Virus record (IMG/VR): IMGVR_UViG_3300017987_000251
Span: 1-32,004 of that record
Reading direction: 5' to 3' (one strand)
DNA from: a virus
Length of the DNA stretch: 32,004 nucleotides
Shown here: positions 1,969 to 29,677 of the stretch, piece after piece
Numbering within the stretch: the stretch's first letter is position 1
How the letters are laid out: each line of letters starts with the position of its first letter
Notes under the pieces: generated by a model
Databases searched by the model: none
What the model saw: only the letters and a program-made list of their open reading frames with translations
Told to the model about the DNA's origin: nothing
Made by a program: the position numbers and the translations under genes

Positions 1969-2098
1969 GAAACGACCAGCAAACAACGGCTCAGGCGGAG
2001 GCAAGAGGCTTAACCGGAACACTGGCGGCTGCAAGAAAGGAGGCCCCGGAAAAGGCAAAGGCCAGAGGCGGGGCAAGGGCACAGGCCGAACCAAGTGA
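1961..2098 (+). CDS. Small Gly/Lys/Arg-rich basic protein (45 aa)
   Basis: ATG at 1961 opens a 45-codon frame ending TGA at 2096-2098; GGAGAAAT just upstream can serve as ribosome binding site. The product is almost entirely Gly, Lys, Arg, Asn and Thr with one Cys (MAKKRPANNGSGGGKRLNRN at the start), is strongly basic and probably disordered, and may bind nucleic acid. It overlaps the preceding gene by 8 bp and the terminase GTG by 4 bp. Low-complexity frames can arise by chance in GC-biased DNA, but the tight coupling on both sides supports it. No function recognised. Confidence 0.5.
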   Translation: MAKKRPANNGSGGGKRLNRNTGGCKKGGPGKGKGQRRGKGTGRTK

Positions 2099-3666
2099 AA
2101 GAGTTCACGTTTGAAGACAAGGGCGCCCGGTACAAGTACAAGTACGCCCGTATAGTCAAGGACCTGAACAGGGCCCGGGACCAGGGCGATACCGAGGCGG
2201 CAATAGGCATTATCAGGCGCTACTGCAAGAAAGACCTCTTCTTCCTGCTCTACTTCATTCTGAACATCCGGCAGTGCAACCATCCCTGGGTTGTCGAGAG
2301 AATCAAAGAGGTTGAGGACCAGAACGACATGACCCTTGACCTGTGGGCCCGGGAGCACTGGAAGACCACCATCTGCACCATAGCGTTAAACATTCAGGAA
2401 ATACTCAAAGACCCCGAAGTCACCATCTGCATATTCTCAGAAACACGAAACATAGCGAAGGCGTTTTTACGCAGAATAAAATTTATCCTTGAGCAGAACG
2501 AACTGCTGAAACAGTCCTTCCCGGACGTCTTGTGGTCCAACCCGGCGAGCCAGAGCCAGTCACTCGCCTTTACCTGGAGCGAGGACTCCGGGCTCATTGT
2601 CAAGAGAAAAGGGACATTCACCGAGGCGACCGTTGAGGCATGGGGAACCGACAGCCTCCCGACGGGAAAGCACTTCGCCATTCTCGACTTCGACGACATG
2701 GTAAACGAGAAGACGGTCAACACCCCCGAGCAGATGGACAAGCTCAAGAACTCATTCCAGCTCGCACAGAACCTTACCCGCCTCGGCGGAAAGGTCCGAA
2801 TAAAGGGAACCATCTACCACTTCGCAGACCTTCACCAGCACCTTGAGGAGACCGGCGAATGGTTTGTCAGGAAGTACCCGGCAGAGGATGAGGACGGCCA
2901 CGGCGTTTACATGGACGGCGAGACACTCCGGCGGAAGCGGAAAATCATGGGCAAGTACGTCTATGCGTCGCAGATGCTCCTGCGCCCCTTCGCCAAGGAA
3001 GACCAGGTCTTTGACGTGCAGTGGATTAAATACTATTCGCAGAGGGCCCCGTCCACCAACCGTGCCATATTCGTTGACCCCGCGCGGACATCAAAGCCGC
3101 AGGCGGACTACTCTGTCTTCGGCGTAATCGACCTTGACCCCCTCAACAACTACTTCCTTACCGACCTTGTCCGAGACAGGCTTGACCTCCAGGACCGATG
3201 GCGGACTCTCCGGGAACTGGTCAGGACGTGGAACTGCAAGGACGTCTACTACGAGAAAACAGGCTCCGGCATAGTGGACATACAGTACATCGAGGAGAAG
3301 ATGGACCAAGAGGGGATTTTCTTTAACCTGGTTCCCATCGACCACCAGAAGGTTCCGAAAGAGGAGCGGATAAAAAAGATTCTCGTTCCCCTGTTTCAGG
3401 AAGGGCTGTTTCGGATGCCTCACGCAATTATTTATTACGATAAAGACGAGAAGCGGCACGACCTTATTCACGAGTTTATAACCGAGGAGTTTACCCGGTT
3501 TCCGTTTTCCACGCATGATGACATGATGGACCTGCTCTCTATGGTGAAGTCTGCCGACGTGGATTTTTATCCGCCGATAACCATAGAGCCGGAGATTCAC
3601 ACAAAGGCGTGGAACCCGCTTGAATCAGACCGTTATGACGACGGCGTAACATGGATGGCAGGATGA
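2095..3666 (+). CDS. terL: Terminase large subunit
   Basis: 523 residues, normal length for the family, starting at GTG 2095 in a GTGA overlap. The packaging motor ATPase and headful nuclease are both visible. The ATPase part has a deviant Walker A around residues 84-92 (WAREHWKTT), a strand with coupling-type residues at 109-116 (VTICIFSE) and Walker B at about 194-202 (FAILDFDDM). The RNase H-like nuclease part has an acidic strand AIFVDPAR (324-331, Asp328), a middle acidic segment VYYEKTGSG (384-392, Glu387) and a terminal acidic pair in FSTHDDMMD (471-479, Asp475/476). The enzyme docks on the portal, translocates DNA with ATP and cuts the concatemer. The portal gene follows immediately with an ATGA overlap. 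Assignment is firm; packaging strategy (cos or headful) cannot be told. Confidence 0.95.
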   Translation: MKEFTFEDKGARYKYKYARIVKDLNRARDQGDTEAAIGIIRRYCKKDLFFLLYFILNIRQCNHPWVVERIKEVEDQNDMTLDLWAREHWKTTICTIALNIQEILKDPEVTICIFSETRNIAKAFLRRIKFILEQNELLKQSFPDVLWSNPASQSQSLAFTWSEDSGLIVKRKGTFTEATVEAWGTDSLPTGKHFAILDFDDMVNEKTVNTPEQMDKLKNSFQLAQNLTRLGGKVRIKGTIYHFADLHQHLEETGEWFVRKYPAEDEDGHGVYMDGETLRRKRKIMGKYVYASQMLLRPFAKEDQVFDVQWIKYYSQRAPSTNRAIFVDPARTSKPQADYSVFGVIDLDPLNNYFLTDLVRDRLDLQDRWRTLRELVRTWNCKDVYYEKTGSGIVDIQYIEEKMDQEGIFFNLVPIDHQKVPKEERIKKILVPLFQEGLFRMPHAIIYYDKDEKRHDLIHEFITEEFTRFPFSTHDDMMDLLSMVKSADVDFYPPITIEPEIHTKAWNPLESDRYDDGVTWMAG

Positions 3667-5408
3667 GCGACAAAGATAAAATCAAAGACGTCAAAGAGTG
3701 CTTTGACAAGACTGCGACTGACCTCGACGGCCTGATGACGCAGATGGAAGAGGACTTCCAGATGTATCTCGGGGACCAGTGGGAGCAGGCAGACAAAGAG
3801 AGGCTTGAGAAGGAGAAGAGGCCGATACTCTCTATCAACAAAATCAAGAAGGGCATTGACGTTATCACCGGCTACCAGATGCAGAACCGGAATGAAATCA
3901 AGGTTCGCCCCATCGAGGGCTCAGACCAGGCTCTTGCCGACGTTTACACTGAGGTTATCAAGTGGGTACTAACGGACGGCGACAGCGGCTTTTCTCAATC
4001 CCAGGCTTTTAAAAACGCCTGTATCGGCGGGCTCGGGTGGCTCCATCCCCAACTGGTATATGACGACGACATTGTCAACGGGGACCTCATTGTCACCAGC
4101 GAGTCCCCCTTCCGCATGTACTTTGACCCTGACCTTACCCACCCCGGCCTCCGGGACTGCAAATACCTTATTCGCCACGCCTGGGTCGATAAAGACGCAC
4201 TCAAGATGGATTACCCGGAGTACAAGAAAGACATTGACGCAATGAAGGCTGGCAACGAGAACGCCTTCAAGATACAGCAGCCGAGGTCCACCACGAAGAA
4301 CCGCATGTCCGTTATCGAGAAATGGTATCGGGAATACGAGTTCAAGCATTTTATCCATGACGCAACCACCAACCAGATAACCGAGTGGACAAAGGACATG
4401 GAGAGTATCGGGAAGATAAAGAAGCTCATCGAGGAATACCCGGATGAGATGGTTCCAGAAACAGAGACAACCTACGGACAGCTTACCGTAATCAAGAGGA
4501 AGCTGCCGGTTATCAAATACATCATGGTTCTTGAGAATAAGCTGATTTTATCCGAGGGCCTTTCGCCGTATAAGTCCCGGCAGTATCCGTTCATCCCGGT
4601 ATGGGGATGGTTTGCGCCCGGATTCAACGACTGGGAGTGGAAGGTTCAGGGAATAGTCCGGGTCCTCAAGGATTCGCAGCGGGAAGTCAACAAGTCCCGT
4701 TCGGCCATTATGCACGCTGTTATGTCAATGCCCCTTTCCGGGTACTGGTTTGAAGAGGGTGCGGTTAAAGACCCCGCAGACCTTAAATCGGCGGGCGGCG
4801 GAGTCAAGACCATCGCCGTAAAGCCGGGGAAGAAGGTAAACGAGCTTCCTCCTCCGACACTGCCAACGTCAGTTGCGCAGATAGAGCAGCAGCACAACCT
4901 TGACATGAGGGAGATGGGGCCGAACCCCGACCTTCTTGGCATGATAGGCGGCGGCACGGGCGCTTCAGCGCCGGGCATTACCCTTCAGCTTCGACAGAAG
5001 CAGGGCATTATGTCCAACCAGGACGTGTTTGAGTCCCTGAGTTACGCAAACAGAAGATTCGGCAAGTTCGTTATTGACATTGTGAACAACCATTACTCAG
5101 CAGAAAAGATTTCAAGGATTATAAACCGGGAACTGCCGCCCCAGTGGGAAGAGGCCAAGGAAAACTCAAGGTACGACTGCATGGTGGACGAGGTTGCGAA
5201 CAGCCCGACGTACCGTGTGATGAACTTCATGGTGCTGACAGAGCTTGCCAAGCAGGGATTACCGGTTCCGATGACAACTCTGGTAGAAGCAACAGACCTG
5301 CCGATGAACACCAAGCAGGAAATTATACAGTATATTCAGCAGCAGCAGCAGATGGCAGCCCAGCAGCAGGGTGCTCCCCCGGGACCCCCGCAGGGACCGC
5401 CGCAATAA
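3663..5408 (+). CDS. Portal protein, P22-like family
   Basis: 581 residues from ATG 3663, which overlaps the terminase stop as ATGA; an in-frame ATG at 3651 would add four residues and overlap more. The portal forms the dodecameric ring at the head vertex used for DNA entry and exit. The N-terminal block RPILSINKIKKGIDVITGYQ and the following NRNEIKVRPIEG are characteristic of P22-type portals, as are the central segment ending in WGWFAPGFNDWEW and the helical block KVQGIVRVLKDSQREVNKSR. The C-terminus is a Gln/Pro low-complexity tail (runs of Q, then PPGPPQGPPQ). Position between terminase and head genes agrees. Confident at family level. Confidence 0.92.
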   Translation: MSDKDKIKDVKECFDKTATDLDGLMTQMEEDFQMYLGDQWEQADKERLEKEKRPILSINKIKKGIDVITGYQMQNRNEIKVRPIEGSDQALADVYTEVIKWVLTDGDSGFSQSQAFKNACIGGLGWLHPQLVYDDDIVNGDLIVTSESPFRMYFDPDLTHPGLRDCKYLIRHAWVDKDALKMDYPEYKKDIDAMKAGNENAFKIQQPRSTTKNRMSVIEKWYREYEFKHFIHDATTNQITEWTKDMESIGKIKKLIEEYPDEMVPETETTYGQLTVIKRKLPVIKYIMVLENKLILSEGLSPYKSRQYPFIPVWGWFAPGFNDWEWKVQGIVRVLKDSQREVNKSRSAIMHAVMSMPLSGYWFEEGAVKDPADLKSAGGGVKTIAVKPGKKVNELPPPTLPTSVAQIEQQHNLDMREMGPNPDLLGMIGGGTGASAPGITLQLRQKQGIMSNQDVFESLSYANRRFGKFVIDIVNNHYSAEKISRIINRELPPQWEEAKENSRYDCMVDEVANSPTYRVMNFMVLTELAKQGLPVPMTTLVEATDLPMNTKQEIIQYIQQQQQMAAQQQGAPPGPPQGPPQ

Positions 5409-5813: not shown

Positions 5814-8099
5814 ATGGGTCTTGGGAAACATATAGTCGAACATGAAATTTTAGGTGTGGCTGACATCTCAGCCAGGCTTGCTGTTTTGGAGGGACAGGAT
5901 GAAATCTACGAAATTTACGAAAGTATTAACGCAGGCGCAGGTGCAGCAGCTATCCCGGTCAATGCCACCGTCCTCCTCAATCGATACCCCGCAGCAGGAG
6001 ACGCCCTCATTACCCAACTCGACGGCAACGGACGACCGATTGACGAGCCTGCGAGGACGGCTGGGGGTGTTGTCATTACGACAACGTTTGATGCAGGAGG
6101 GAATTGGGTCCTGTCAGGCGTACCTACGGCGTATCCGGTTGCTCTCATATATCAAGTTAGCATTGATAGGCAGTACGCTAGCAATATATCTATTGCACAG
6201 ATTGTCGACAAGTTCGAGCTTTACGAAGCTGATGAAATCGTTTATGACAATAGTGGGTCTGGACTAACCTCGAACGATGTTCAAGGGGCGATTGACGAGT
6301 TAAATACAGTAGTTGGTGGTGCTGGTTATTACAGCATGAAAAACAGTGTTCTTGTTAATCCTGATGTTGCAGAGGTAACGGGGAAAAGGTATCAGTCTAT
6401 TGCGAGCGCCCTGGCCTACATAGCGACCCAGACTCCCGGCCAAATTAACCGGTGGTCGGTGGTCGTTTCCGGTCACAACACGGAAAACTTTGCCATCCCC
6501 GCTTACGTGGCTATTGTTGGAATCGGGGAGGCTGCAACTCTTTGGGGAACAATAACCAGCGCCGGTATTTCTGGCGATTGGAGGCAGTATCTTATTTATA
6601 ATTGTACTGTATCGAACGTGAACCCTGGAGCGAGTCAGCAGATAGCCTGTGTTAATACTCATATTATAAATTCCACCGTAGCGAACGGCAGGCTTCGTCT
6701 TTATAATTGCTATATTGAAGATTGTGATTGGAGCGGTGCGAATGAAGTATTTGCCTTTAGTTGTGTGTTCAGGTCTGGCAGTGCTGCTAATATAAATGCT
6801 GCTGATGGACAGTTTCATAATTGCTATTTTGACTTATATCTTGATATATCCCAGGGTGATTTTTACAACTGTCGATTTGCGAACTCAATAGACCTTGAGC
6901 CGTCTGGAAATCTTAACCTGTATAATTGCAGATGTGACATGGTAAACAGGTTTTTTGTTAATGCGGGAACCACCTACGTTGAGAACTGCACGGTTAGAGA
7001 TGTTGACGTAGACAACGGGACAATCACGTTCAAGCAAAGTACGATTGAAGACCTGGATATGTCCGGCGGAACAGTAAATGTCTATAACTCCATAATGGCG
7101 TCATTGACAAATACCGGAGGAACACTGAATGTTTATGGCTTTTTCTTTGATAATTCAACCAATATTCTTACTGCGGATGAAGCGCAGGCAGCCATTGAGG
7201 AGCTTGCGGGAATAGCAGTCCGGAGGTTTACCACTGTCGCCAATGCGGAAGCGGCGAACGGAACGGATAACGATTTATGCTATGTTGTTGAAACAGAAAC
7301 ATTATACAGATACGAGTCGGCAGGAGCAGCCTACACGGATGATAATATGTACGTCCTGTCAACGGCGGATGCGGGAAATACAAGATGGCTTGGCGTTGCT
7401 GGACAATACGCTATCCTCCAGCCAAGAGTTCTTGCGACATACGCACGGCTCGGAGCGGAGGAAATAGATGGTGTTGGAAACGCAATCGACACGAACATCT
7501 CACTCTACCAAGTTCCGGCGTCAACCTATGCTGAGTCGGTCAAAGTTACGATTTGCAATAGGAATAACAGTGTTGTTGCCGTGCGGCTTGCTCATGTTGA
7601 TGGTGCTATTGGTGCTGTGGCTGATGAGGACTACATTCTTTACGACGCAGAACTCGAATCATACGAAACCAGAACAATCGTCATAGGCGGCATGGTCGCC
7701 ACAGACTCAATACTTATACGGTCAGATACGGTTGATGTGAATTTCGTTGCTACTGGTAAGACTTATGCTGCCGATGGTGGATGGAGGCGACTCGGGGCGA
7801 CCACGGTAGTTGCCGATACCGACACCGCCCTGTACACGGCAACCGGGTATGTCGAGAAGGTTTCGATTGTCGCATGTAACAAGGACGGGGTAAACGCTGT
7901 TAATGTTCGCATTGCCCTTATTGACGGAGCTATTGGAGCCTGGGCGGATGAGGATAATCTGGTATATGAGGATCCGCTTCTCGCAGGTGAAACAAAGGTC
8001 TATGACTTTGAAATAGACATGGCGAACTCGAATACTATAGGAGTTAGGTCTGATGATGCTGATGTAAACTTTATTGCGTATGGACGGGTGGCAGTCTAA
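5814..8099 (+). CDS. Large tail/appendage protein with beta-helix-like region and C-terminal repeats
   Basis: 761 residues. Residues 15-40 could form a short helical stem. Two fibre-type junction motifs are seen: SNDVQGAIDEL (about 153-163) and ADEAQAAIEEL (about 454-464), a pattern common where phage fibre modules join. Between them, about 259-445 is rich in short Cys/Asn/Val strand turns (LYNCYIEDCDW, FHNCYFDLYLD, FYNCRFANS, LYNCRCDMV), suggesting a right-handed parallel beta-helix such as tailspikes use to bind or cut host polysaccharide. Residues 544-650 and 658-761 are two diverged copies of one beta-rich domain sharing DGAIGA-ADED and VRSD/IRSD cores. The role is probably host-surface recognition; enzymatic activity cannot be inferred. 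Unusually it lies between portal and scaffold genes. Confidence 0.75.
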   Translation: MGLGKHIVEHEILGVADISARLAVLEGQDEIYEIYESINAGAGAAAIPVNATVLLNRYPAAGDALITQLDGNGRPIDEPARTAGGVVITTTFDAGGNWVLSGVPTAYPVALIYQVSIDRQYASNISIAQIVDKFELYEADEIVYDNSGSGLTSNDVQGAIDELNTVVGGAGYYSMKNSVLVNPDVAEVTGKRYQSIASALAYIATQTPGQINRWSVVVSGHNTENFAIPAYVAIVGIGEAATLWGTITSAGISGDWRQYLIYNCTVSNVNPGASQQIACVNTHIINSTVANGRLRLYNCYIEDCDWSGANEVFAFSCVFRSGSAANINAADGQFHNCYFDLYLDISQGDFYNCRFANSIDLEPSGNLNLYNCRCDMVNRFFVNAGTTYVENCTVRDVDVDNGTITFKQSTIEDLDMSGGTVNVYNSIMASLTNTGGTLNVYGFFFDNSTNILTADEAQAAIEELAGIAVRRFTTVANAEAANGTDNDLCYVVETETLYRYESAGAAYTDDNMYVLSTADAGNTRWLGVAGQYAILQPRVLATYARLGAEEIDGVGNAIDTNISLYQVPASTYAESVKVTICNRNNSVVAVRLAHVDGAIGAVADEDYILYDAELESYETRTIVIGGMVATDSILIRSDTVDVNFVATGKTYAADGGWRRLGATTVVADTDTALYTATGYVEKVSIVACNKDGVNAVNVRIALIDGAIGAWADEDNLVYEDPLLAGETKVYDFEIDMANSNTIGVRSDDADVNFIAYGRVAV
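7443..8096 (+). repeat. Intragenic tandem domain duplication in tail protein
   Basis: The last ~218 codons of the 5814-8099 gene encode two consecutive copies of a ~105-residue beta-rich domain (about 7443-7763 and 7785-8096). Shared landmarks in order: RLGA near the start, a strand with VKVTICN / VSIVACN, the core DGAIGA followed by ADED, a strand with ETRTIV / ETKVYDF, and SDTVDVNFVA / SDDADVNFIA near the end. The copies are well diverged, so the duplication is old. Confidence 0.75.
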
Positions 8100-10921: not shown

Positions 10922-11908
10922 ATGCCTAAGACAACTACCGTACAGGTGGACCCGGCCATATCGACCTTTTATGACAAGGTTCTTTTGGTTCGGGCACTCC
11001 CGGAGTTGTGCCATAACTTATTTGGACAAAACAGACCTCTGCCGACAGGTTCAGGGGATACAATCAAGTTTCGACGATATAATTCTTTGAACCCGGCGAC
11101 TGCCCCTCTGACCGAGGGCATTACGCCTGCGGCAGTGCAGTTGTCCAAGACGGACCTGACATCGACCATCAAGCAGTATGGTAACCTGGTTCAGATTACC
11201 GACATGGTAGAATGGACAAACCAGGACAAGGTTCTTACCGAAGCAGCAACCCTGCTCGGGGAGAACGCCGGACAGAGTCTTGATATTATCTATCGAGAAA
11301 CTCTGGTTGCTGGTACGCAGGTCAGGTATGGCACGGGCGTTGCGAATCGGCTGGCAGTCAACAACAAGATTGCCAACACCGATATGAACATCGTAATCCG
11401 GGCCTTGGAAAATGCAAACGCCAAGCATTTTACCAAGATGATTCAACCCATGAATAAGTATGCCTCTTCGCCTATCAGGGCAGCTTATTGGGGAATTATA
11501 CATCCAGATGTCCATTACGACATCCAGAGTATAACAGGGTGGACCCCGGTCCACGAATACGCCAGCCAGCAGGAGACCTATCCTAACGAGGTAGGAGCCT
11601 ATAAGAACATCAGATTCATTATGTCCACGTATGCCAAAGTTTTCGCTGACAGTGGTGCAGCAGTAGGTGGCGGTTGGAAATCAACCGGTGGTGTAACCAA
11701 TGACGTTTACATTACCCTGATTTTCGCCAAGAACGCTTACGGTATCTGTCCGCTTTCAGGCCATGCGCTTGAAAACATCAGAAAGCCGAGAGGTTCTGGA
11801 ACTGACTACCTCGACCAGTACAGCACGTCTGGCTGGAAGGCCGCAACCACCATTAAAATCCTGGACGACAGCTTCATGTACAGGATAGAAACTACGGCAA
11901 CGGCGTAA
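10922..11908 (+). CDS. Major capsid protein, N4-gp56 family
   Basis: 328 residues. The N-terminal half carries the family hallmarks in order: STFYDKVLLVRALPELCHNL and FGQNRPLP (about 14-41), then IKFRRYNSL-PAT-PLTEG (48-66), then TIKQYGNLVQITDMVE (82-97). These define the N4-gp56 type of HK97-fold capsid protein. The C-terminal half has an Ala/Gly-rich domain with SYAKVF-type strand (IMSTYAKVFADSGAA) and ends GWKAATTIKILDDSFMYRIE, also typical. It would assemble the icosahedral shell on the scaffold encoded just upstream. GGAGA lies 5-6 nt ahead of ATG. High confidence. Confidence 0.93.
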   Translation: MPKTTTVQVDPAISTFYDKVLLVRALPELCHNLFGQNRPLPTGSGDTIKFRRYNSLNPATAPLTEGITPAAVQLSKTDLTSTIKQYGNLVQITDMVEWTNQDKVLTEAATLLGENAGQSLDIIYRETLVAGTQVRYGTGVANRLAVNNKIANTDMNIVIRALENANAKHFTKMIQPMNKYASSPIRAAYWGIIHPDVHYDIQSITGWTPVHEYASQQETYPNEVGAYKNIRFIMSTYAKVFADSGAAVGGGWKSTGGVTNDVYITLIFAKNAYGICPLSGHALENIRKPRGSGTDYLDQYSTSGWKAATTIKILDDSFMYRIETTATA

Positions 11909-12674: not shown

Positions 12675-13175
12675 ATGATACCAGGAGCACGAGGCATAGA
12701 CCTCAGAAAACAAAACAAGGGAACCATCATCGTCTACAACAACGACATGCCGCAGGGTTCGGACATCGTTGTCGGCGTTAATGGCAACCGGTTCACCATT
12801 CAGGAAGGAAAAGAAGTAATTGTTCCCTCGTCAGTTATTGACGTACTCAATGATGCTATCATTGAAGAGCCCATTGTCGATGCGTTGGGCCGTATTCAGA
12901 CAGATGAAAACGGGAACATGAAGATGCGGAAGAAAAACAGGTTTATCGTAAACATCATCAAGGACCCGAAGAATACAAAGCGGGGAAGACCCAAGGTTAA
13001 ACAAGAGCCGGAGGTCGAAGATGAAACCCCGGAAATGAAGGTCCTGGACGAATACAAGGAACCGGAACATAAGAAGACTACCACTAAAAATATTGGTGGC
13101 GAGTTGGACGAGGAGAACCTTGTGGACGACTACGACGCAGAGGAAGAAGATGACACTGACGGAGATATACAATAA
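12675..13175 (+). CDS. Hypothetical protein with acidic C-terminus (166 aa)
   Basis: ATG 12675 follows AGGAGGA with 6-nt spacing. The N-terminal ~100 residues look folded, strand-rich (KGTIIVYNNDMPQGSDIVVG, then GNRFTIQEGKEVIVPSSVID), and the rest is a Lys-then-Asp/Glu-rich disordered tail ending EEEDDTDGDIQ. It lies between capsid genes and the putative head-tail adaptor, whose start lies inside it (26-bp overlap). No family recognised; a minor head protein is plausible from position. Confidence 0.65.
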   Translation: MIPGARGIDLRKQNKGTIIVYNNDMPQGSDIVVGVNGNRFTIQEGKEVIVPSSVIDVLNDAIIEEPIVDALGRIQTDENGNMKMRKKNRFIVNIIKDPKNTKRGRPKVKQEPEVEDETPEMKVLDEYKEPEHKKTTTKNIGGELDEENLVDDYDAEEEDDTDGDIQ

Positions 13176-13803
13176 AGTAGTCTGGTACGTATTTGGTGAT
13201 ACGGCCTCTATTCCCACGAGTGTTGCTGCCAATCTCCAGGGGGACGAAGGGCTTATCGCACAGATACACCGGCGAGTACAGGTGGAATGGGACTACTGGT
13301 TCCAGCAGTACGAAGATACAATGGCGGTAACGTCCGGGAACAACACCTATTTGATGCCGGGTACGTTCAAGAAGGAAATAGAGTTCTATTTTACGGACGC
13401 CAGCACCGGACACAGCAGAGAGCCTTTAACCAGGCTTATCCGGCACGAGAAGGTGGCAACCTTTCAGGACCCGACGGAGGAAGCGGAGTACCCGACTCAT
13501 TACGAAACCGTCAGGAACAGGCTGTACCTGTACCCAACGCCAAATCAGGACTTAACTTTAAACCGCCGGTACATCAGGATTCTACCGAACCCTGGCTGGC
13601 CCGACGGAGAGGACTTTGTGACGAACGAAGCCACAATGGTCCTCATTTATCTCGCAGTTATTGAGCTATGCAGCGTTCTTGATTACGACAAGAAGCTCAA
13701 TCTCTTTGCAACAAAGTATAAAATTGAACTCGATACCCTTCGGGAGCGTGATTGGGAATACAAGTTCCCGAGGGGTGGAGACATGAACTATAAGGGGTTT
13801 TAG
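13150..13803 (+). CDS. Putative head-tail adaptor/connector protein
   Basis: 217 residues. I choose ATG 13150 (MTLTEIYNKVVWYVFGD) because residues upstream in this frame are the shifted reading of the previous acidic tail and because GAGGAAGAAG precedes it. The N-terminus TLTEIYNKVVWYVFGD followed by a helix containing QIHRRVQVEWDYWFQ, a beta-rich middle (NNTYLMPGTFKKEIEFYF, RNRLYLYPTPNQDLTLNRRY) and a long C-terminal helix is the pattern of short-tailed phage adaptor proteins that ring the portal (P22 gp4 / SU10-adaptor-like). No catalytic motif is seen. It precedes the collar-protein block by a one-base overlap. Family assignment is by pattern and position. Confidence 0.6.
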   Translation: MTLTEIYNKVVWYVFGDTASIPTSVAANLQGDEGLIAQIHRRVQVEWDYWFQQYEDTMAVTSGNNTYLMPGTFKKEIEFYFTDASTGHSREPLTRLIRHEKVATFQDPTEEAEYPTHYETVRNRLYLYPTPNQDLTLNRRYIRILPNPGWPDGEDFVTNEATMVLIYLAVIELCSVLDYDKKLNLFATKYKIELDTLRERDWEYKFPRGGDMNYKGF

Positions 13804-14390
13804 TGGCCTACACAGAAACATGGAATGAGGCAAAACCCGCTGATACCGACTTCATATTTGACGGGTCCGGTCAGTTGCGCAAGTTTAAAGTTGCCATAAG
13901 GGAACGGCTTCTCGTTCTTAGTCCGATTGGTTCCATAATCGACTATGGTTCCGACACCCCGCCCGAGGGCTGGCTGGTTTGTGATGGGTCCGCTATTAGC
14001 AGGGCTACTTATGCTGACCTGTTTGCCGTAATTGGCACTGCTTTCGGGAATGGCGATGGGGCTACCACCTTTAATCTCCCGGACAAGAGGGGTAGGTTTT
14101 CCAGGGGACGGGCGAACGGCCAGGCTACCGACCCGGACCGTGCAACGAGGACGGCTATTTCCGGCGGAAACACCGGCGATAATGTTGGCAGCTATCAAAC
14201 CGACCAGTATCTTGCTCACAACCATACGCTATATCGACGTACCGCCGGTGGCGGTTCGACCGGATATTCGTCAGCACTTATTGGGCAGCCCAGTTATACT
14301 TACGCTTATACTTATAATGCTGGCGGTAACGAGTCAAGACCTATCAACGTGTACTGTACTTCTATCATAAAATATTCGGGTATATTCTAA
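13803..14390 (+). CDS. Tail collar-domain protein, copy 1
   Basis: 195 residues from GTG 13803, overlapping the prior TAG by one base. Residues 1-36 form an adaptor-like segment (TWNEAKPADTD ... LRKFKVAIRERL) and about 41-105 are a phage tail-collar domain: PIGSIIDYGSDTPPEGWLVC, DGSAISRATYADLFAVIG, GNGDGATTFNLPDKRGRF. The segment after NTGDNVGSYQTDQYLAHNH (123-141) differs from the sister copies and is Tyr/Gly/Ser-rich. Collar proteins sit at fibre tips or short fibres and contribute to receptor binding. First of three tandem paralogues (next at 14390 and 14974). Confidence 0.88.
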   Translation: MAYTETWNEAKPADTDFIFDGSGQLRKFKVAIRERLLVLSPIGSIIDYGSDTPPEGWLVCDGSAISRATYADLFAVIGTAFGNGDGATTFNLPDKRGRFSRGRANGQATDPDRATRTAISGGNTGDNVGSYQTDQYLAHNHTLYRRTAGGGSTGYSSALIGQPSYTYAYTYNAGGNESRPINVYCTSIIKYSGIF

Positions 14391-14977
14391 TGGCTTATGC
14401 TGAATCATGGGACGTTCTTGTTCCGAGAGACAACGACTACTATAAGGATGGAGCCAACCAGATACGCAGGTTTAAGACAGCCATTCGTGAACGCGCGAAT
14501 GACATTTATCCTGTAGGCACAGTTCTTGAATGGGGGAGCCATACTCCGCCGGATGGCTGGCTTATTTGTGACGGCTCGGCTATAAGCAGAGCAACTTACG
14601 CCATTTTGTTTGCAGTGATTGGCATTGCTTTCGGCAACGGGGACGGAGCCACGACGTTTAACCTGCCAGACACGAGAGGAAGGTTTATCCGTGGTCATGC
14701 AGATGGTCAGGCCACTGACCCCGACCGGGGAACAAGGGTAGCCATTGCTGGCGGTAATACTGGAGACAATATCGGTAGTTACCAGACGAATAACAATAGG
14801 TCTCATAAACACGAAGTTTATTGTGACGGTCTGGCCGGTGCAATAACCTGCTTTCAACTTAGCTTCGCCATTACAGCCGCTTGGGTCGAGAACACAACGA
14901 CCGATGGTGGAAACGAGAACAGGCCGAAAAACGTTTATGTGAATCATATTATAAAGTATGGGAGAGATGAGTTTTGA
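14390..14977 (+). CDS. Tail collar-domain protein, copy 2
   Basis: 195 residues; ATG 14390 overlaps the previous TAA. Same design as copy 1: MAYAESWDVLVPRDNDYYKD, then QIRRFKTAIRERA, then the collar domain with PVGTVLEWGSHTPPDGWLIC and DGSAISRATYAILFAVIG, NLPDTRGRFIRGHADGQATD, NTGDNIGSYQTNNNRSHKHE. The tail end (from about residue 143) diverges (CDGLAGAITCFQLSFAITAA) and has no counterpart in copies 1 or 3 except a final NRPKNVYVNHIIKYG motif. Equal length to copy 1 shows a clean duplication with divergence at the presumed tip. Probably another component of a short fibre complex. Confidence 0.88.
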   Translation: MAYAESWDVLVPRDNDYYKDGANQIRRFKTAIRERANDIYPVGTVLEWGSHTPPDGWLICDGSAISRATYAILFAVIGIAFGNGDGATTFNLPDTRGRFIRGHADGQATDPDRGTRVAIAGGNTGDNIGSYQTNNNRSHKHEVYCDGLAGAITCFQLSFAITAAWVENTTTDGGNENRPKNVYVNHIIKYGRDEF

Positions 14978-15555
14978 TTGAGACCTGGGATGAGGCGGCC
15001 CCTGCTGACGTTGACGACTTTTATCTTGGCGCAAGTGAGATAAGGGAGTTCAAGAGGGCCATTGCGGAAAGGGCGAATGTTTGTTCTCCTGTTGGTAATA
15101 TTGTGCCCTATGGGAACGCTGTCGCCCCAGCCGGATGGCTTATTTGTGATGGCTCCGCTATAAGTCGAACAACGTATTCTGACTTATTCTCCGTAATCGG
15201 AGCGGCTTACGGCAATGGGGACGGCTCCACAACCTTTAACTTACCAGACCTTCGGGGCAGGTTTATTCGTGGCCATGATGATGGTGCGGGCAATGACCCC
15301 GATGTAGGGACGAGAAGTGCTATTGCCGGAGGCAACACCGGGGATAATGTTGGCAGTTACCAGACCGACCAATACAAACAGCATAATCACGGGATTGCCA
15401 ACTATGTTGCTGGCGCTGCTGTCACAACGATGTATTTAAACACCAGGGATGCTTCCTGGGTTGATAATTATATGTCTTTAACCGGGGCTGGTGATACTCG
15501 GCCTGAGAATGTTTATTTCAAGTATATAATTCGCTATGCTATTTTAATTACATAA
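14974..15555 (+). CDS. Tail collar-domain protein, copy 3
   Basis: 193 residues; begins at TTG 14974 (MIETWDEAAPADVDD) with GGAGAGATGAG upstream, overlapping the previous TGA by 4 bp. The collar core is conserved: PVGNIVPYGNAVAPAGWLIC, DGSAISRTTYSDLFSVIG, GDGSTTFNLPDLRGRFIRGH, GGNTGDNVGSYQTDQYKQHN. The end again diverges (ANYVAGAAVTTMYLNTRDAS) but finishes with RPENVYFKYIIRYA, matching the closing motif of copies 1 and 2. Third member of the tandem family; same likely role at the adsorption apparatus. Confidence 0.88.
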   Translation: MIETWDEAAPADVDDFYLGASEIREFKRAIAERANVCSPVGNIVPYGNAVAPAGWLICDGSAISRTTYSDLFSVIGAAYGNGDGSTTFNLPDLRGRFIRGHDDGAGNDPDVGTRSAIAGGNTGDNVGSYQTDQYKQHNHGIANYVAGAAVTTMYLNTRDASWVDNYMSLTGAGDTRPENVYFKYIIRYAILIT

Positions 15556-15564
15556 GGAGAGACT

Positions 15565-16095
15565 ATGAAGATTTATCACATCCACCCAACAACCAAAGAG
15601 TTTCTTGAGAGCAGTTTCGCCCAAATTGACCCGGCGGAATCGTTAGTGCAGGACAAGGAAGTTTATCTTATGCCAGCAAACACCACAGACGTTGAGCCTC
15701 CAGAGGTTTCCGAGGGCCTTGTTTCCGTATGGGACGAAGACAAGAAGCAGTGGGCCGTTAAGCCGGACCATCGTGGAATTTATTATAACAAGCAGTCACA
15801 GGCTCGCCTCGAAGTACACCAGATAGGGTTTGAGGTTGGTGACGAGTATACCGTTATAGAACCCCCCGGGCCCGGCTATGTTTTTAATGGCGAGGTATGG
15901 GAAAAGGATATAAACAGCGTCAAGGAAGTAAGAAAAAGCGTACTTGCTGCTCAGAAGGGGTTTGCAGAAGAGCAGGCAGCTATCTTGAAGCGAATAATAG
16001 CGGGAGAGTCAGCCGATGACATACTCGCAGAAAAAGAGCAGGCTATTGACGCAGCTAAAACCATAGAGGAGGTTGAGGCAATAACGTGGAGCTAA
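15565..16095 (+). CDS. Probable tail fibre assembly-type protein
   Basis: 176 residues; ATG 15565 after AGGAGAG. N-terminal half: MKIYHIHPTTKEFLESSFAQ, PPEVSEGLVSVWDEDKKQWA, then YYNKQSQARLEVHQIG and PGPGYVFNGEVWEKD; the pattern SVWDEDKKQW plus GYVFNGEVWEK is typical of phage fibre-assembly/fibre-associated proteins. The C-terminal ~55 residues are a charged helix (VRKSVLAAQKGFAEEQAAIL; ILAEKEQAIDAAKTIEEVEA). It directly follows the collar paralogues, where chaperones of fibre folding usually lie. Whether it is a chaperone or itself a virion protein cannot be decided. Confidence 0.65.
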   Translation: MKIYHIHPTTKEFLESSFAQIDPAESLVQDKEVYLMPANTTDVEPPEVSEGLVSVWDEDKKQWAVKPDHRGIYYNKQSQARLEVHQIGFEVGDEYTVIEPPGPGYVFNGEVWEKDINSVKEVRKSVLAAQKGFAEEQAAILKRIIAGESADDILAEKEQAIDAAKTIEEVEAITWS

Positions 16096-16886
16096 CCACC
16101 AGAGATGATGAGGTTCTTGCGGACCCCGAATCTGAGAATTATGCGAAGGGGACCAATGAGCAGATAGAGGAGCAGTATAAGCGCATACACTCTGACCTCG
16201 GTTATCTGCTCGATATGCTTGAACACCTTAACTCGTATGGAGTCCTGTATAAAGACCTTACCATATCCAGGGCTACTGTTGCGACCGTAAGTATTTCCTG
16301 GACAACTCTCTTCATCGAGGGTATCAAGTCCGAGGGGTATAGCGGAACGGTTGATATAACAGCCAGCGGCGCTGGTGGCCTCGATACTGGAGCTGAGGCG
16401 GTAAGCACCTGGTATTATATCTGGGCCATACAGGGAGAGTCGGGAGTTTCATGCCTGTTGTCAGCCAGTCACACTGACCCGACAATGCCCACAGGGTATA
16501 CGAAGAAGAAACTGATAAGTGCTGTGTACAACGATGGGGCTGGTGATTTTAGAGTTTTTTACCAAGAAGGAAATTACATTAATTATGGTGCATATCTTAT
16601 GTTTCTTAACGCCGGTACAGCAGGAGCAACAACCGAAGTCGATAGTTCTGCTTATTTTCCAGAGAACACAAGAGACCTTGATGTAATGTATTATCAGACT
16701 GCTGCTGTGGTAGTTACTACAATTTATGGATATATGAATGGCGGTTATCGTTTTCAGGCTTACCCGTATTCAAGTGGGGGTGGTTTACAGGAGAAAGTGA
16801 CGATTGCTTCTGTGAATAGAAAGGTAGCTTATGACACAACGGGCACTCTTTATTTATATGCTTGTGGGTTTTGGTTTATGATATGA
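16086..16886 (+). CDS. Putative tail surface protein (266 aa)
   Basis: Starts GTG 16086, overlapping the previous stop by 10 bp; the following gene starts within its stop (ATGA). Residues about 1-52 are helical (ENYAKGTNEQIEEQYKRIHS, DLGYLLDMLEHLNSYG), resembling the adaptor segments of the collar proteins; the rest is beta-rich with GEAVSTWYYIWAI-like (actual AEAVSTWYYIWAIQ), SHTDPTMPTGYTKKKLISAV and a C-terminal part ending GTLYLYACGFWFMI. The TYYYIWAI / PTMPTGYTKKKLIS arrangement is common in phage tail proteins of unknown exact role. I place it with the adsorption apparatus on context and composition. Confidence 0.65.
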   Translation: MELTTRDDEVLADPESENYAKGTNEQIEEQYKRIHSDLGYLLDMLEHLNSYGVLYKDLTISRATVATVSISWTTLFIEGIKSEGYSGTVDITASGAGGLDTGAEAVSTWYYIWAIQGESGVSCLLSASHTDPTMPTGYTKKKLISAVYNDGAGDFRVFYQEGNYINYGAYLMFLNAGTAGATTEVDSSAYFPENTRDLDVMYYQTAAVVVTTIYGYMNGGYRFQAYPYSSGGGLQEKVTIASVNRKVAYDTTGTLYLYACGFWFMI

Positions 16887-18721
16887 AAGCGGTAAGACAC
16901 AACAGTAAAACATTTGTCCAGATAGAATCATTCAAGGGTGTCAACATAGACGACCATCCTCGAATGATTCCCGAGGACCAGCTATCTGACTGTAATAACG
17001 TATGGCTTACTTACGGTAAAATCAGACAGCGATTTGGGTATCGGGAACTGGGAACGAACCTTCCCCTGGCTGGTGTGCCCATACACGTAAAGTTCTTTGA
17101 CAAGCTCTCATCGACGAGCAATTTTCTATTAGCATTGACCTCTTCCGATATTTATTACCATCAAGGGAGCTCGGACACTTGGCTCTTTTTAACCCCTATC
17201 CACACCACCGGGCAGGCGGCCTGCGCAGGTACTACCGCAGTTACCGGTGCAGCCTCGGCATGGGACAACGTCAACTGGCCGTCCCTCGTTTACTATATCG
17301 GCTTTGGGACACAGGACCCGGACGCAGTTACCACATGGTACAGGGTTGCGAGCTTTGATACGCCGACAGCACTGACCCTTGAGTCTGCCGGACCTAACAC
17401 TGGCGGCAATGTCAATTATGTTATCCGCATGTGTTTCCGAGGAAACATATCGAACTATCAAAATGTTCCTGACTGGACCGTGGCCATCGACGGCTCGGTA
17501 AACGACAATATCTTTATAGTATCGAATGGCATTGACCCAGTTATGAAGTTCCGGGATTTAGCAGCTACCCCTCAGTTTACAGCGCTTGCGCCGGTAGACC
17601 TGGCGACTGTCCAAGGAAAGTTTGTGGAGTATTATGAAGACCATGTATTTCTTGCTAACATTGTTGATACCGGAACGCCTTTTCCTACGAGCATTGCTTA
17701 CTCGGTTAGAGGCGACCCTTCTGATTGGAGCGGTACTGGCTCTGGTATCACTATGCTTACTCGTGATGAGACCAAGATTACCGCTTTAAAGCTCCTCAAG
17801 AAGAGGTTATATGTCTTCAAGGAGCAGAGTATCACCGAGGTCTGGCATGACGCCAGGAACGCTGCTGCTCCATTCCTGTTTGATGAGAACAAGTTCTACA
17901 AAGTCGGGTGTCCTGCGGGACGGACTATCCAGGTAATCGAGGGCAAGTTTCTAATCTTTCTCGGGAACGATAACGTCTACGTGTTTGACGGCATGAATCT
18001 CCAACCCGTAGGCAAGGGCATATCTGACTATCTGATAGACAATATCAATAAAACTTGCATGAATAAGTTTTTTTCTATTGCCATGCAGGAGTATTCATTG
18101 TATCTTCTATTTGTAGTAGAAGGTTCGGGCACAGATATAAATAAGTGTTATTGCTTTGATTACAAAAAGAACGCTTGGACCATCTGGACCCTGAATGATA
18201 CCATGAGTGGGGGAGGGGATTATTCCCTGGATACGTCTGAACGATGGGTTGACGTAACCGTGGGGACGAGATGGCTTGATATGGTTGGAACCTGGGGAGA
18301 TGAGACCGTTGTCGGTGGAGTACCCGTACCGGCCTTATGCGGATTGAACGGGTATATCTATGACCTCGATGAGAACTATGTAACTGACAACGCAGCAGCG
18401 ATTAGCGCCGGGTTCACCACGGCGGACCTTGAGTTCGACGACCCGAAGCAGGCCAAGGGGTTTATCGAGATGCTGTTCACCCATTCGGTTCAGGCTTCTG
18501 GAGACATACAGATGAGGGTGTCTGTGGACTTTGGGGATAACTGGTCCGACTGGAGAACCATCACCATGACCGGGGATGGAGCAGTGGAGGACAAGGCGAT
18601 TGCGTGGATGCAGAGAGGCAAGCAGATTCGAGTGCAGATACAGAACGTGTCGGGCTCGATGTTTGAAATAGAAGACCTTATTGCAGGGTTTGAGGTTACA
18701 GGATTGGAGGTAAGGAGATGA
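16883..18721 (+). CDS. Tail hub / packaged-DNA stabilisation protein, P22 gp10-like
   Basis: 612 residues from ATG 16883, an ATGA overlap with the preceding stop; a TTG at 16862 in frame is less likely. The N-terminal FVQIESFKGVNIDDHPRMIP followed by DCNNVWLTYGKIRQRFGYRE is the hallmark opening of P22 gp10-like stabilisation/hub proteins, which plug the portal-adaptor after packaging. Successive beta-propeller-like blades follow: NIFIVSNGIDPVMKFRD, ALKLLKKRLYVFKEQSITEV, KFLIFLGNDNVYVFDGMNLQ, SLYLLFVVEGSGTDINKCYC. A C-terminal beta domain (MRVSVDFGDNWSDWRTITMT) closes the protein. Family usage fits a short-tailed phage. Good confidence for family, moderate for exact role. Confidence 0.75.
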   Translation: MKAVRHNSKTFVQIESFKGVNIDDHPRMIPEDQLSDCNNVWLTYGKIRQRFGYRELGTNLPLAGVPIHVKFFDKLSSTSNFLLALTSSDIYYHQGSSDTWLFLTPIHTTGQAACAGTTAVTGAASAWDNVNWPSLVYYIGFGTQDPDAVTTWYRVASFDTPTALTLESAGPNTGGNVNYVIRMCFRGNISNYQNVPDWTVAIDGSVNDNIFIVSNGIDPVMKFRDLAATPQFTALAPVDLATVQGKFVEYYEDHVFLANIVDTGTPFPTSIAYSVRGDPSDWSGTGSGITMLTRDETKITALKLLKKRLYVFKEQSITEVWHDARNAAAPFLFDENKFYKVGCPAGRTIQVIEGKFLIFLGNDNVYVFDGMNLQPVGKGISDYLIDNINKTCMNKFFSIAMQEYSLYLLFVVEGSGTDINKCYCFDYKKNAWTIWTLNDTMSGGGDYSLDTSERWVDVTVGTRWLDMVGTWGDETVVGGVPVPALCGLNGYIYDLDENYVTDNAAAISAGFTTADLEFDDPKQAKGFIEMLFTHSVQASGDIQMRVSVDFGDNWSDWRTITMTGDGAVEDKAIAWMQRGKQIRVQIQNVSGSMFEIEDLIAGFEVTGLEVRR

Positions 18722-28573: not shown

Positions 28574-28859
28574 GATATTCAAGAAGAAGCGTGAGAAGGG
28601 GGATGAGTTTCTCCCGAAGGAAAAGCGGAAGCAGGAGAAGGCTGAGGCGAACAAGAGCCGTGGCAAGTTCAGCCGGGGGATTGCCGATTTTCTTCGAGGG
28701 GGAAAGAAGCAAAAGTATCGTATCAGATACGTAACCCACTTCCGTATGTGGAAGTCAACATGCGACAAGTGTGGAGAGGTTTACGTAAAAATGATAAAGG
28801 ATGCACGAAGGAATTGTCCCAAGTGCATGAAAAAATTTGATAAGGAGAAGGGTATATGA
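28566..28859 (+). CDS. Zinc-ribbon protein
   Basis: 97 residues; ATG 28566 (GAAGAGG upstream) overlaps the annealase stop by 8 bp. The first ~50 residues are Lys/Glu/Arg-rich and basic, probably nucleic-acid-binding; the C-terminal part holds two CxxC pairs, Cys66/Cys69 (CDKCG) and Cys84/Cys87 (CPKC), a zinc-ribbon. Such domains are common in phage DNA-metabolism proteins. It lies between annealase and nuclease, so it may act with them, though no enzymatic motif is seen. Confidence 0.65.
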   Translation: MIKIFKKKREKGDEFLPKEKRKQEKAEANKSRGKFSRGIADFLRGGKKQKYRIRYVTHFRMWKSTCDKCGEVYVKMIKDARRNCPKCMKKFDKEKGI

Positions 28860-29677
28860 AAGTAATTGATGTGATTGAAAAGCAAATGATGGCCGAGGAA
28901 GAGGAGACCCGGGAGCGCAGGTCTTACTGGCCGTCGGAGGCAACCATGTGTCTCAGGAAACTTTTTTACAAGTGGACCGAGACACAAGAGTCTAACCCCA
29001 TACCGCCGTCCGGTCGATGGAAGATGGACATGGGGAACGCCGGTGAGTCAGTTTTGAGGGAGTGGCTCAGTAAAACCGGGCTTGAACTCCTCGGGAAAAT
29101 GAAGGCCGAACTTGACGTTGAAGACCTCAACTATCCCATCAGTGGAGAGGCCGACGAGATAATCAATGATGAGAAAGGACTGCTGGGTCCGATAGGGGAG
29201 CGGGTTGGTATTGAGGTTAAGACCAGTTATGGAAATGGAGTCAGGGCCATTAAGGAGAATGGAGCCAAGGACGATCACGTTGCCCAGTGCATACTGTATA
29301 TGCACATGTTTCACACCAGGGAATGGCGTCTTATTTATGTTAGCCGAGACGACGGCTATCGGTTAGAGTTCGTTATTACTCGTGACGATTTTGGCACTGT
29401 CTATGTTGACGGGAAAGAGTTTCCGAAGTCTTTGGGTAATTACCTTGACCGGTTCCGGGAGCTGGAAGTGGCCGTTGAGTTAGGGAAACTCCCGGATAGA
29501 GAGTACCGTGCTGCCATCAAGAATGGCGAAATCAAGACCAAGTTCCAGCAGGACAAGGTTGAGTACCGAACCGACTGGCAGTGTGGCTATTGTCAGTTCA
29601 GGAACCTGTGCTGGAAGGAAGAGCTTGAGCGCTATGCAGATTCAACAAACATAGAAATCTTTGCAGAGGAGGAGTGA
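28856..29677 (+). CDS. Cas4/RecB-like PD-(D/E)XK nuclease with Fe-S Cys set
   Basis: 273 residues; ATG overlaps the previous TGA (ATGA). Motifs are clear: GNAGESVLREWL (61-72), GEADE with Asp100, EVK at Glu120/Lys122 (GIEVKTS), and QxxxY at Gln144/Tyr148 (QCILYMHMF), the RecB-type PD-(D/E)XK set. Cys32 (TMCLRK) together with Cys243, Cys246 and Cys252 (CGYCQFRNLC) matches the four-Cys iron-sulphur arrangement of Cas4/AddB nucleases. It would resect or process DNA ends with metal ions, feeding single strands to the adjacent annealase. No CRISPR array or cas genes are nearby, so a phage recombination role is more likely. Confidence 0.85.
   Translation: MKVIDVIEKQMMAEEEETRERRSYWPSEATMCLRKLFYKWTETQESNPIPPSGRWKMDMGNAGESVLREWLSKTGLELLGKMKAELDVEDLNYPISGEADEIINDEKGLLGPIGERVGIEVKTSYGNGVRAIKENGAKDDHVAQCILYMHMFHTREWRLIYVSRDDGYRLEFVITRDDFGTVYVDGKEFPKSLGNYLDRFRELEVAVELGKLPDREYRAAIKNGEIKTKFQQDKVEYRTDWQCGYCQFRNLCWKEELERYADSTNIEIFAEEE

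Follow-up and report, generated by a model that had tools for sequence, protein, structure and literature searches.

Why would a phage carry three collar genes of almost equal length, one directly after the other? The question is raised by the 32,004 bases of the virus record IMGVR_UViG_3300017987_000251, the whole stretch analysed here, which we call the window. Its terminase (2095-3666), portal (3651-5408), major capsid (10922-11908), adaptor and nozzle genes identify it as a short-tailed phage. The collar genes, here c1, c2 and c3, lie on the plus strand, as do all the neighbours described below, and they overlap at their ends. The GTG start of c1 (13803..14390, 195 amino acids) overlaps the stop of the adaptor gene, the start of c2 (14390..14977, 195 amino acids) overlaps the stop of c1 (TAATG), and the TTG start of c3 (14974..15555, 193 amino acids) overlaps the stop of c2.

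The immediate 5' neighbour of the trio codes for a head-to-tail adaptor protein of the SU10 gp11 type (13150..13803, ATG at 13150; Pfam SU10_adaptor, 29.9 bits, cut-off 27). Its profile has as top match in SU10 a 255 amino acid open reading frame, the size of gp11, with an E of 1.2e-5. Downstream of c3 we find a tail fibre assembly (Tfa-type) protein of 176 amino acids (15565..16095; phrog_105, E 4e-25), whose relatives sit just 3' of collar genes in three of the loci that we fetched (L004, L009 and L019). It is followed by a fibre-like protein of 266 amino acids (16086..16886; phrog_17105), with a weak match to the second domain of Mtd (PF21916, 20.4 bits, below the cut-off of 24.6). The tail nozzle protein comes next (16883..18721, likely start ATG 16883), it is of the SU10 gp17, Pa223 and P22 gp10 kind. 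The interval between adaptor and nozzle thus contains the trio, the Tfa-type gene and the gene of the 266 amino acid protein. These last two separate c3 from the nozzle gene, which starts 1.3 kb downstream of the trio. Two other regions of the window may be mentioned. A 761 amino acid protein between portal and capsid (5814-8099) matches the tail fibre family phrog_11338 in its C-terminal part (E 2e-14), an odd position for a fibre. Positions 28856-29677 match Cas4-like exonuclease families (phrog_1706, E 1e-28; phrog_1990, E 3e-17).

All three proteins of the trio match the Pfam Collar family (PF07484), with 86.0, 81.3 and 91.2 bits for c1, c2 and c3 (cut-off 24), and nothing else in the record matches this family. 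Their pairwise identity is 54-58%. The N-terminus, the core, the GGNTGDN-GSYQT block and the final RPxNVYxxxIIxY are largely invariant, the divergent part is the tip, after residue ~137. DNA identity among copies is 31-45% in the tip, versus 63-71% in core plus block. Pairwise nonsynonymous differences follow the same pattern: 0.14-0.23 in core plus block, 0.34-0.37 in the N-terminus and 0.49-0.62 in the tip. Such a combination of shared core and divergent tip is far above chance. Reading frames, Collar matches and alignment all bear out the preliminary description of this locus, which spoke of three consecutive genes of 195, 195 and 193 residues with common parts and differing tips. An HxH motif is kept in the three copies (HNH, HKH and HNH) and aligns with the HKH of T4 gp12 (1ocy). 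Diversification of the tips by a diversity-generating retroelement, as in Mtd, was considered and rejected: there are no reverse transcriptase (PF00078) matches in the record, which may be a fragment.

What the shared N-terminus does is suggested by phage SU10. In a PDB profile search, residues 8-42 weakly match (E 0.11) chain I of 7z47, the SU10 tail; this chain of 267 amino acids fits the short tail fibre gp16. When a profile of the N-terminus, built from seven rows (the three window copies and four loci), is compared with the SU10 reading frames, gp16 ranks first with an E of 2e-4, over a short match of about 20 residues. A 39 amino acid stretch of c2, compared with 50,697 phage records, returned 67 of them with weak E values (4-8). 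By the first word of their names, 62 are Escherichia, 3 Shigella and 2 "phage"; the matches listed (60 of 67) include SU10, phiEco32 and similar records, and the match in SU10 falls inside the gp16 gene. The 39 amino acid N-terminus of c3, taken alone, matched only designed proteins in the PDB. In SU10, Tyr23-Ile24-Tyr25 of gp16 clamp a loop of the nozzle at Trp839, Trp847 and Trp857 (PMC9509320). The stretch aligned to this clamp is DYIYEG in gp16, DFIFDG in c1, DYYKDG in c2 and DDFYLG in c3.

If the fibres dock in the same way in this phage, the nozzle should offer a similar loop. The nozzle profile matches SU10 gp17 with an E of 1e-11. An AlphaFold model built from 27 sequences (pTM 0.73, mean pLDDT 67) has the Pa223 nozzle as best PDB match (Z 29.7, rmsd 2.8, 423 residues), followed by the SU10 nozzle (Z 28.3, rmsd 4.0, 471 residues) and then by the P22 and T7 nozzles (Z 18-21). 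A single-sequence fold was discarded, its mean pLDDT being 36. Residues 457-486 of the model form a loop with pLDDT below 50, flanked by confident strands. Just past the end of the conserved profile region the window nozzle carries SERWVDVTVGTRWLDMVGTWGDE, so placed that the three-tryptophan loop lies where the SU10 nozzle holds its fibre. The candidate dock loop is DTSERWVDVTVGTRWLDMVGTWGDETVVGG (18230..18319, tryptophan codons at 18245, 18272 and 18293).

The tryptophan triad tends to accompany this N-terminus. It is present at the aligned site in 8 of 8 nozzles whose locus has the N-terminus, versus 3 of 22 nozzles without it; this count covers the 30 of 54 distinct nozzle rows that are readable through the site, and the Fisher p of 3e-5 ignores relatedness among rows. 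Two of the three exceptions (L075 and L083) have a fibre gene directly upstream with an N-terminus which looks similar by eye, the other (L102) matches in spacing and lacks the repeated W-D pattern. Some other nozzles have triads farther downstream (L026, L033, L034 and L048, with two in L063), so a triad does not by itself mark this N-terminus. When the whole protein is shuffled, a triad appears in the slice used for the window in 3.4% of the trials, and the loop of the window, taken alone, is therefore weak evidence. We should also note that the two triads of L063 (12613-14202) are successive, at residues 439 and 469 of its nozzle: They may be two fibre docks. What had been called an N-terminal adaptor is indeed a shared segment, and the profile match and the tryptophan triad allow us to narrow its role to that of the segment by which short tail fibres of the SU10 type dock on the nozzle. 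The members of the trio are thus very probably short tail fibres docked on the nozzle, and by analogy with SU10 they would dock in this phage through that segment.

The same slot has been compared in other genomes. Each of the complete-slot loci (L038, L041, L042, L123, L194, PaP3 and SU10) has one gene with this N-terminus, and among complete-slot loci only the window has three. In the nearest relative which reaches the slot, L044, a collar-like gene that starts with another N-terminal segment is followed by the first 68 residues of a gene with the dock segment, where the sequence ends. Scans with the adaptor and nozzle as single proteins found no relatives, while the capsid found two. Alignment scans gave many collar and capsid loci, none of them a second phage with three copies bearing this N-terminus. 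Some of these loci have unusual contents. Between fibre and nozzle, L042 (1756-5275, on the same contig as L119) has a cysteine-rich protein, two CxxxCxxC-type proteins and another gene; the CxxxCxxC-type motifs resemble by eye those of radical-SAM enzymes, and this might be a cassette for peptide modification placed in the slot of a tail fibre. L038 (4193-4981) and L041 (2-643) contain a long serine-rich, low-complexity protein (SSSSSS with C or R scattered in between), with the adaptor directly 3'.

A simple explanation of the trio would be a neutral or recent tandem duplication which has left redundant or decaying copies. Tandem arrays of collar genes are in fact common. The loci that we fetched yielded 213 runs of collar genes, grouped in 130 clusters, 102 of them with an uncensored run. 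These 102 have runs of one (81), two (11), three (8), five (1) and six genes (1); at least two genes are thus found in 21 of 102, a count which is only suggestive, since the loci were fetched by their likeness to the window and long runs are easier to hit, while some runs of two may conceal a third gene. The run of six consists of two trios. Within the window, silent sites are saturated throughout (pS 0.73-0.96 in core plus block), yet the cores are conserved and the reading frames of all three copies are intact. Saturated silent sites together with conserved cores indicate that no copy is decaying. Decay of the other copies, the sign named beforehand as speaking against the first reading of the trio, is accordingly not seen within this genome. 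Since the cores differ so little at nonsynonymous positions, the duplications appear to be old and all three copies to have been kept under selection. The longest DNA runs common to the copies have 12-14 bases, and with the saturated silent sites this leads us to reject a recent duplication or gene conversion. We consider neutral duplication highly improbable.

The trio appears instead to have arisen by an old duplication inside the line of this phage. In a tree of 113 collar rows the window cores form one branch (SH-aLRT 98), within which c1 and c2 are closest (SH-aLRT 98); the tree rests on few columns, with weak support for 55 of its 110 inner branches. This single branch, and the fact that the tip is the divergent part, support the earlier suggestion of a duplication followed by diversification of the tips.

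If the three copies are maintained, they may have separate tasks. One of them could be the working short fibre, with the others placed on the capsid, on the side of another fibre, or used in assembly. The dock helix of c3 is the most acidic (EIREFKRAIAER, versus QLRKFKVAIRER and QIRRFKTAIRER), and in the relative L044 a collar-like protein whose N-terminus is different lies beside the gene with the dock segment. However, in the window all three copies have the dock segment, equal length and similar constraint, and we regard such a division of labour as unlikely.

The remaining choice is between one fibre made of three different chains and several fibres with different tips. Collar trios recur in unrelated genomes, runs of three (8) being almost as frequent as runs of two (11) among the clusters, and when a trio can be compared with a diverged one the copies mostly correspond position by position. 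Comparing L005 with the second trio of L010, identities are 68/70/75% on the diagonal and 52-57% off it, and the positional pairs are supported in the tree (SH-aLRT 97, 90 and 93). The first trio of L010 and L015 give 67/73/69% versus 35-45%, L282 and L265 88/90/85% versus 56-59%, L168 and L172 60/69/59% versus 47-56%, and L170 and L176 93/85/79% versus 53-65%. The match is less regular between L140 and L144 (48/75/77% versus 29-54%), where the first copy has its best match off the diagonal, and L134 has no simple positional orthology with either of them. Three tandem collar genes are also found in Bartonella genomes (L168, L170, L172, L173, L174, L176 and L181). L010 (3338-8212) and L012 have back-to-back trios with a gene of 114 amino acids between them. 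In S-CAM7 there are three collar places in the record, with no adjacent trio in the fetched stretch.

A biochemical precedent comes from the virophage DSLV2, where three consecutive PF07484 proteins are reported to co-purify 1:1:1 as a heterotrimer, with positional conservation (PMC12724248). In our literature searches this was the only relevant paper on collar trios. It was also the one found for tail-fibre heterotrimers, where two other papers describe baseplate wedges (PMC10811340, PMC10966104); for the tryptophan dock only the SU10 paper was relevant (PMC9509320).

The preliminary description had left two possibilities side by side: hetero-oligomeric fibres or a set of alternative receptor binders. 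As receptor binders, the three proteins would form three homotrimeric fibres with different tips, which share six nozzle docks. The virion would then carry a mixture, able to use several receptors. Dock segment, HxH pair and end strand are present in every copy, and each has all the parts a homotrimer needs. The tips change fastest, and in SU10 a dock of this kind receives a homotrimer, gp16 (PMC9509320), which counts against a mixed trimer. On the other hand, a set of alternative binders would be expected to differ in number between relatives, with copies lost or exchanged, but the trios that can be traced mostly keep three genes in the same order, and the only run of three collar genes examined experimentally, that of DSLV2, is a heterotrimer (PMC12724248). 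A mixture of homotrimers has a fair chance, though we find it less likely. The positional orthology of other trios and the DSLV2 heterotrimer (PMC12724248) make the hetero-oligomer, by analogy, the favoured reading.

Our proposal is that the three genes code for three subunits of a single short tail fibre docked on the nozzle, probably as a mixed trimer, a proposal to which we give an even chance. We are about equally divided on whether the trimer has exactly one c1, one c2 and one c3. From its N-terminus onward, each chain would consist of a dock segment (about residues 1-38), a collar like that of T4 gp12, whose histidine pair could coordinate a metal on the three-fold axis, a variable tip that binds the receptor, and a C-terminal strand that is conserved. 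The tip of the tail would be formed by the nozzle protein, probably as a hexamer with one three-tryptophan loop per subunit. As in SU10, the three N-termini of a trimer would dock on one loop, each clamping one tryptophan, with probably six loops per tail. The single-gene slot of the relatives would have been duplicated twice long ago in this line, and the most likely present form, judging from DSLV2 and the other trios, would be one c1, one c2 and one c3 per fibre. A mixed trimer would fit the dock, since its three tryptophan segments differ from one another, and the tip would then present three unlike faces instead of three equal ones. From their position, the overlapping start and stop codons may ensure that all three chains are made together, and the Tfa-type protein encoded immediately 3' of c3 probably aids folding. 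A stricter version, in which two duplications have led to an obligate 1:1:1 heterotrimer, each chain bound to its own tryptophan of the asymmetric loop, and in which the trios of unrelated phages and of bacterial genomes have repeatedly reached the same solution, seems to us somewhat less than evenly probable.

If the proposal is true, the usual picture of such a fibre as three equal chains would give way to one with three unlike faces. A receptor could then be recognised through three partial sites in combination, and this recognition could evolve in each chain separately. The nozzle loop with three tryptophans and the short N-terminal segment would together provide a sequence rule by which nozzle-docked fibres can be recognised in uncultured phages, and what collar-gene trios mean would become directly testable. 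Our computations support the gene structure, the age and constraint of the copies, the dock segment, the nozzle fold and the loop; docking in this phage, the composition of the trimer and receptor binding are inferred.

One of the closest known systems is DSLV2, of the Aquatic Virophage 1 lineage. Its three consecutive PF07484 genes are similar in length, with conserved collar and variable tip, as in the window (PMC12724248). DSLV2 is a virophage, for which attachment to the capsid via the collar is proposed there, while the window belongs to a tailed phage and each copy has a nozzle-docking N-terminus (PMC12724248). Instead of a virophage gene set with a minor capsid protein as neighbour, the window has terminase, portal, adaptor and nozzle. 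The Bartonella trios (L168-L181) also have three tandem collar genes, and the copies of L168 each carry one shared anchor segment. This anchor (STIYDWSL..DWSEGQ.PSSVN.SAR in L168) differs from that of the window; the proteins are mostly larger and the genomes cellular. The tip of T4 gp12 (1ocy, 1pdi) aligns with the collar core and HxH site (E 1e-11), and no match of T4 gp12 to the dock segment was reported. T4 gp12 is a homotrimer, part of the baseplate of a contractile tail.

PaP3 (Bruynoghevirus) is another close system. Its orf12 has the same kind of N-terminus and its nozzle the triad SNLWDDDSNPWDTDTSVWGEG, but it has a single fibre gene, of 215 amino acids, directly before the nozzle gene, where the window has three. 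The PaP3 nozzle is a full-length match of 9nwi (Pa223), and its fibre of 9nxk. The agreement with SU10 extends to the dock segment, the three-tryptophan loop, which has the same position in the two homologous nozzles, the kind of adaptor, and a collar-like central domain in gp16 (PMC9509320). The differences are in number and arrangement: SU10 has one gene and a homotrimer (PMC9509320), while the window has three genes. The gp16 gene directly precedes the nozzle gene, while the trio is parted from it by two genes, and gp16 has 267 amino acids with a gp37-like tip, while the window copies have 193-195. In summary, the trio occupies the SU10-type slot between adaptor and nozzle: The novelty of this phage is a known kind of short tail fibre, that of SU10, in triplicate.
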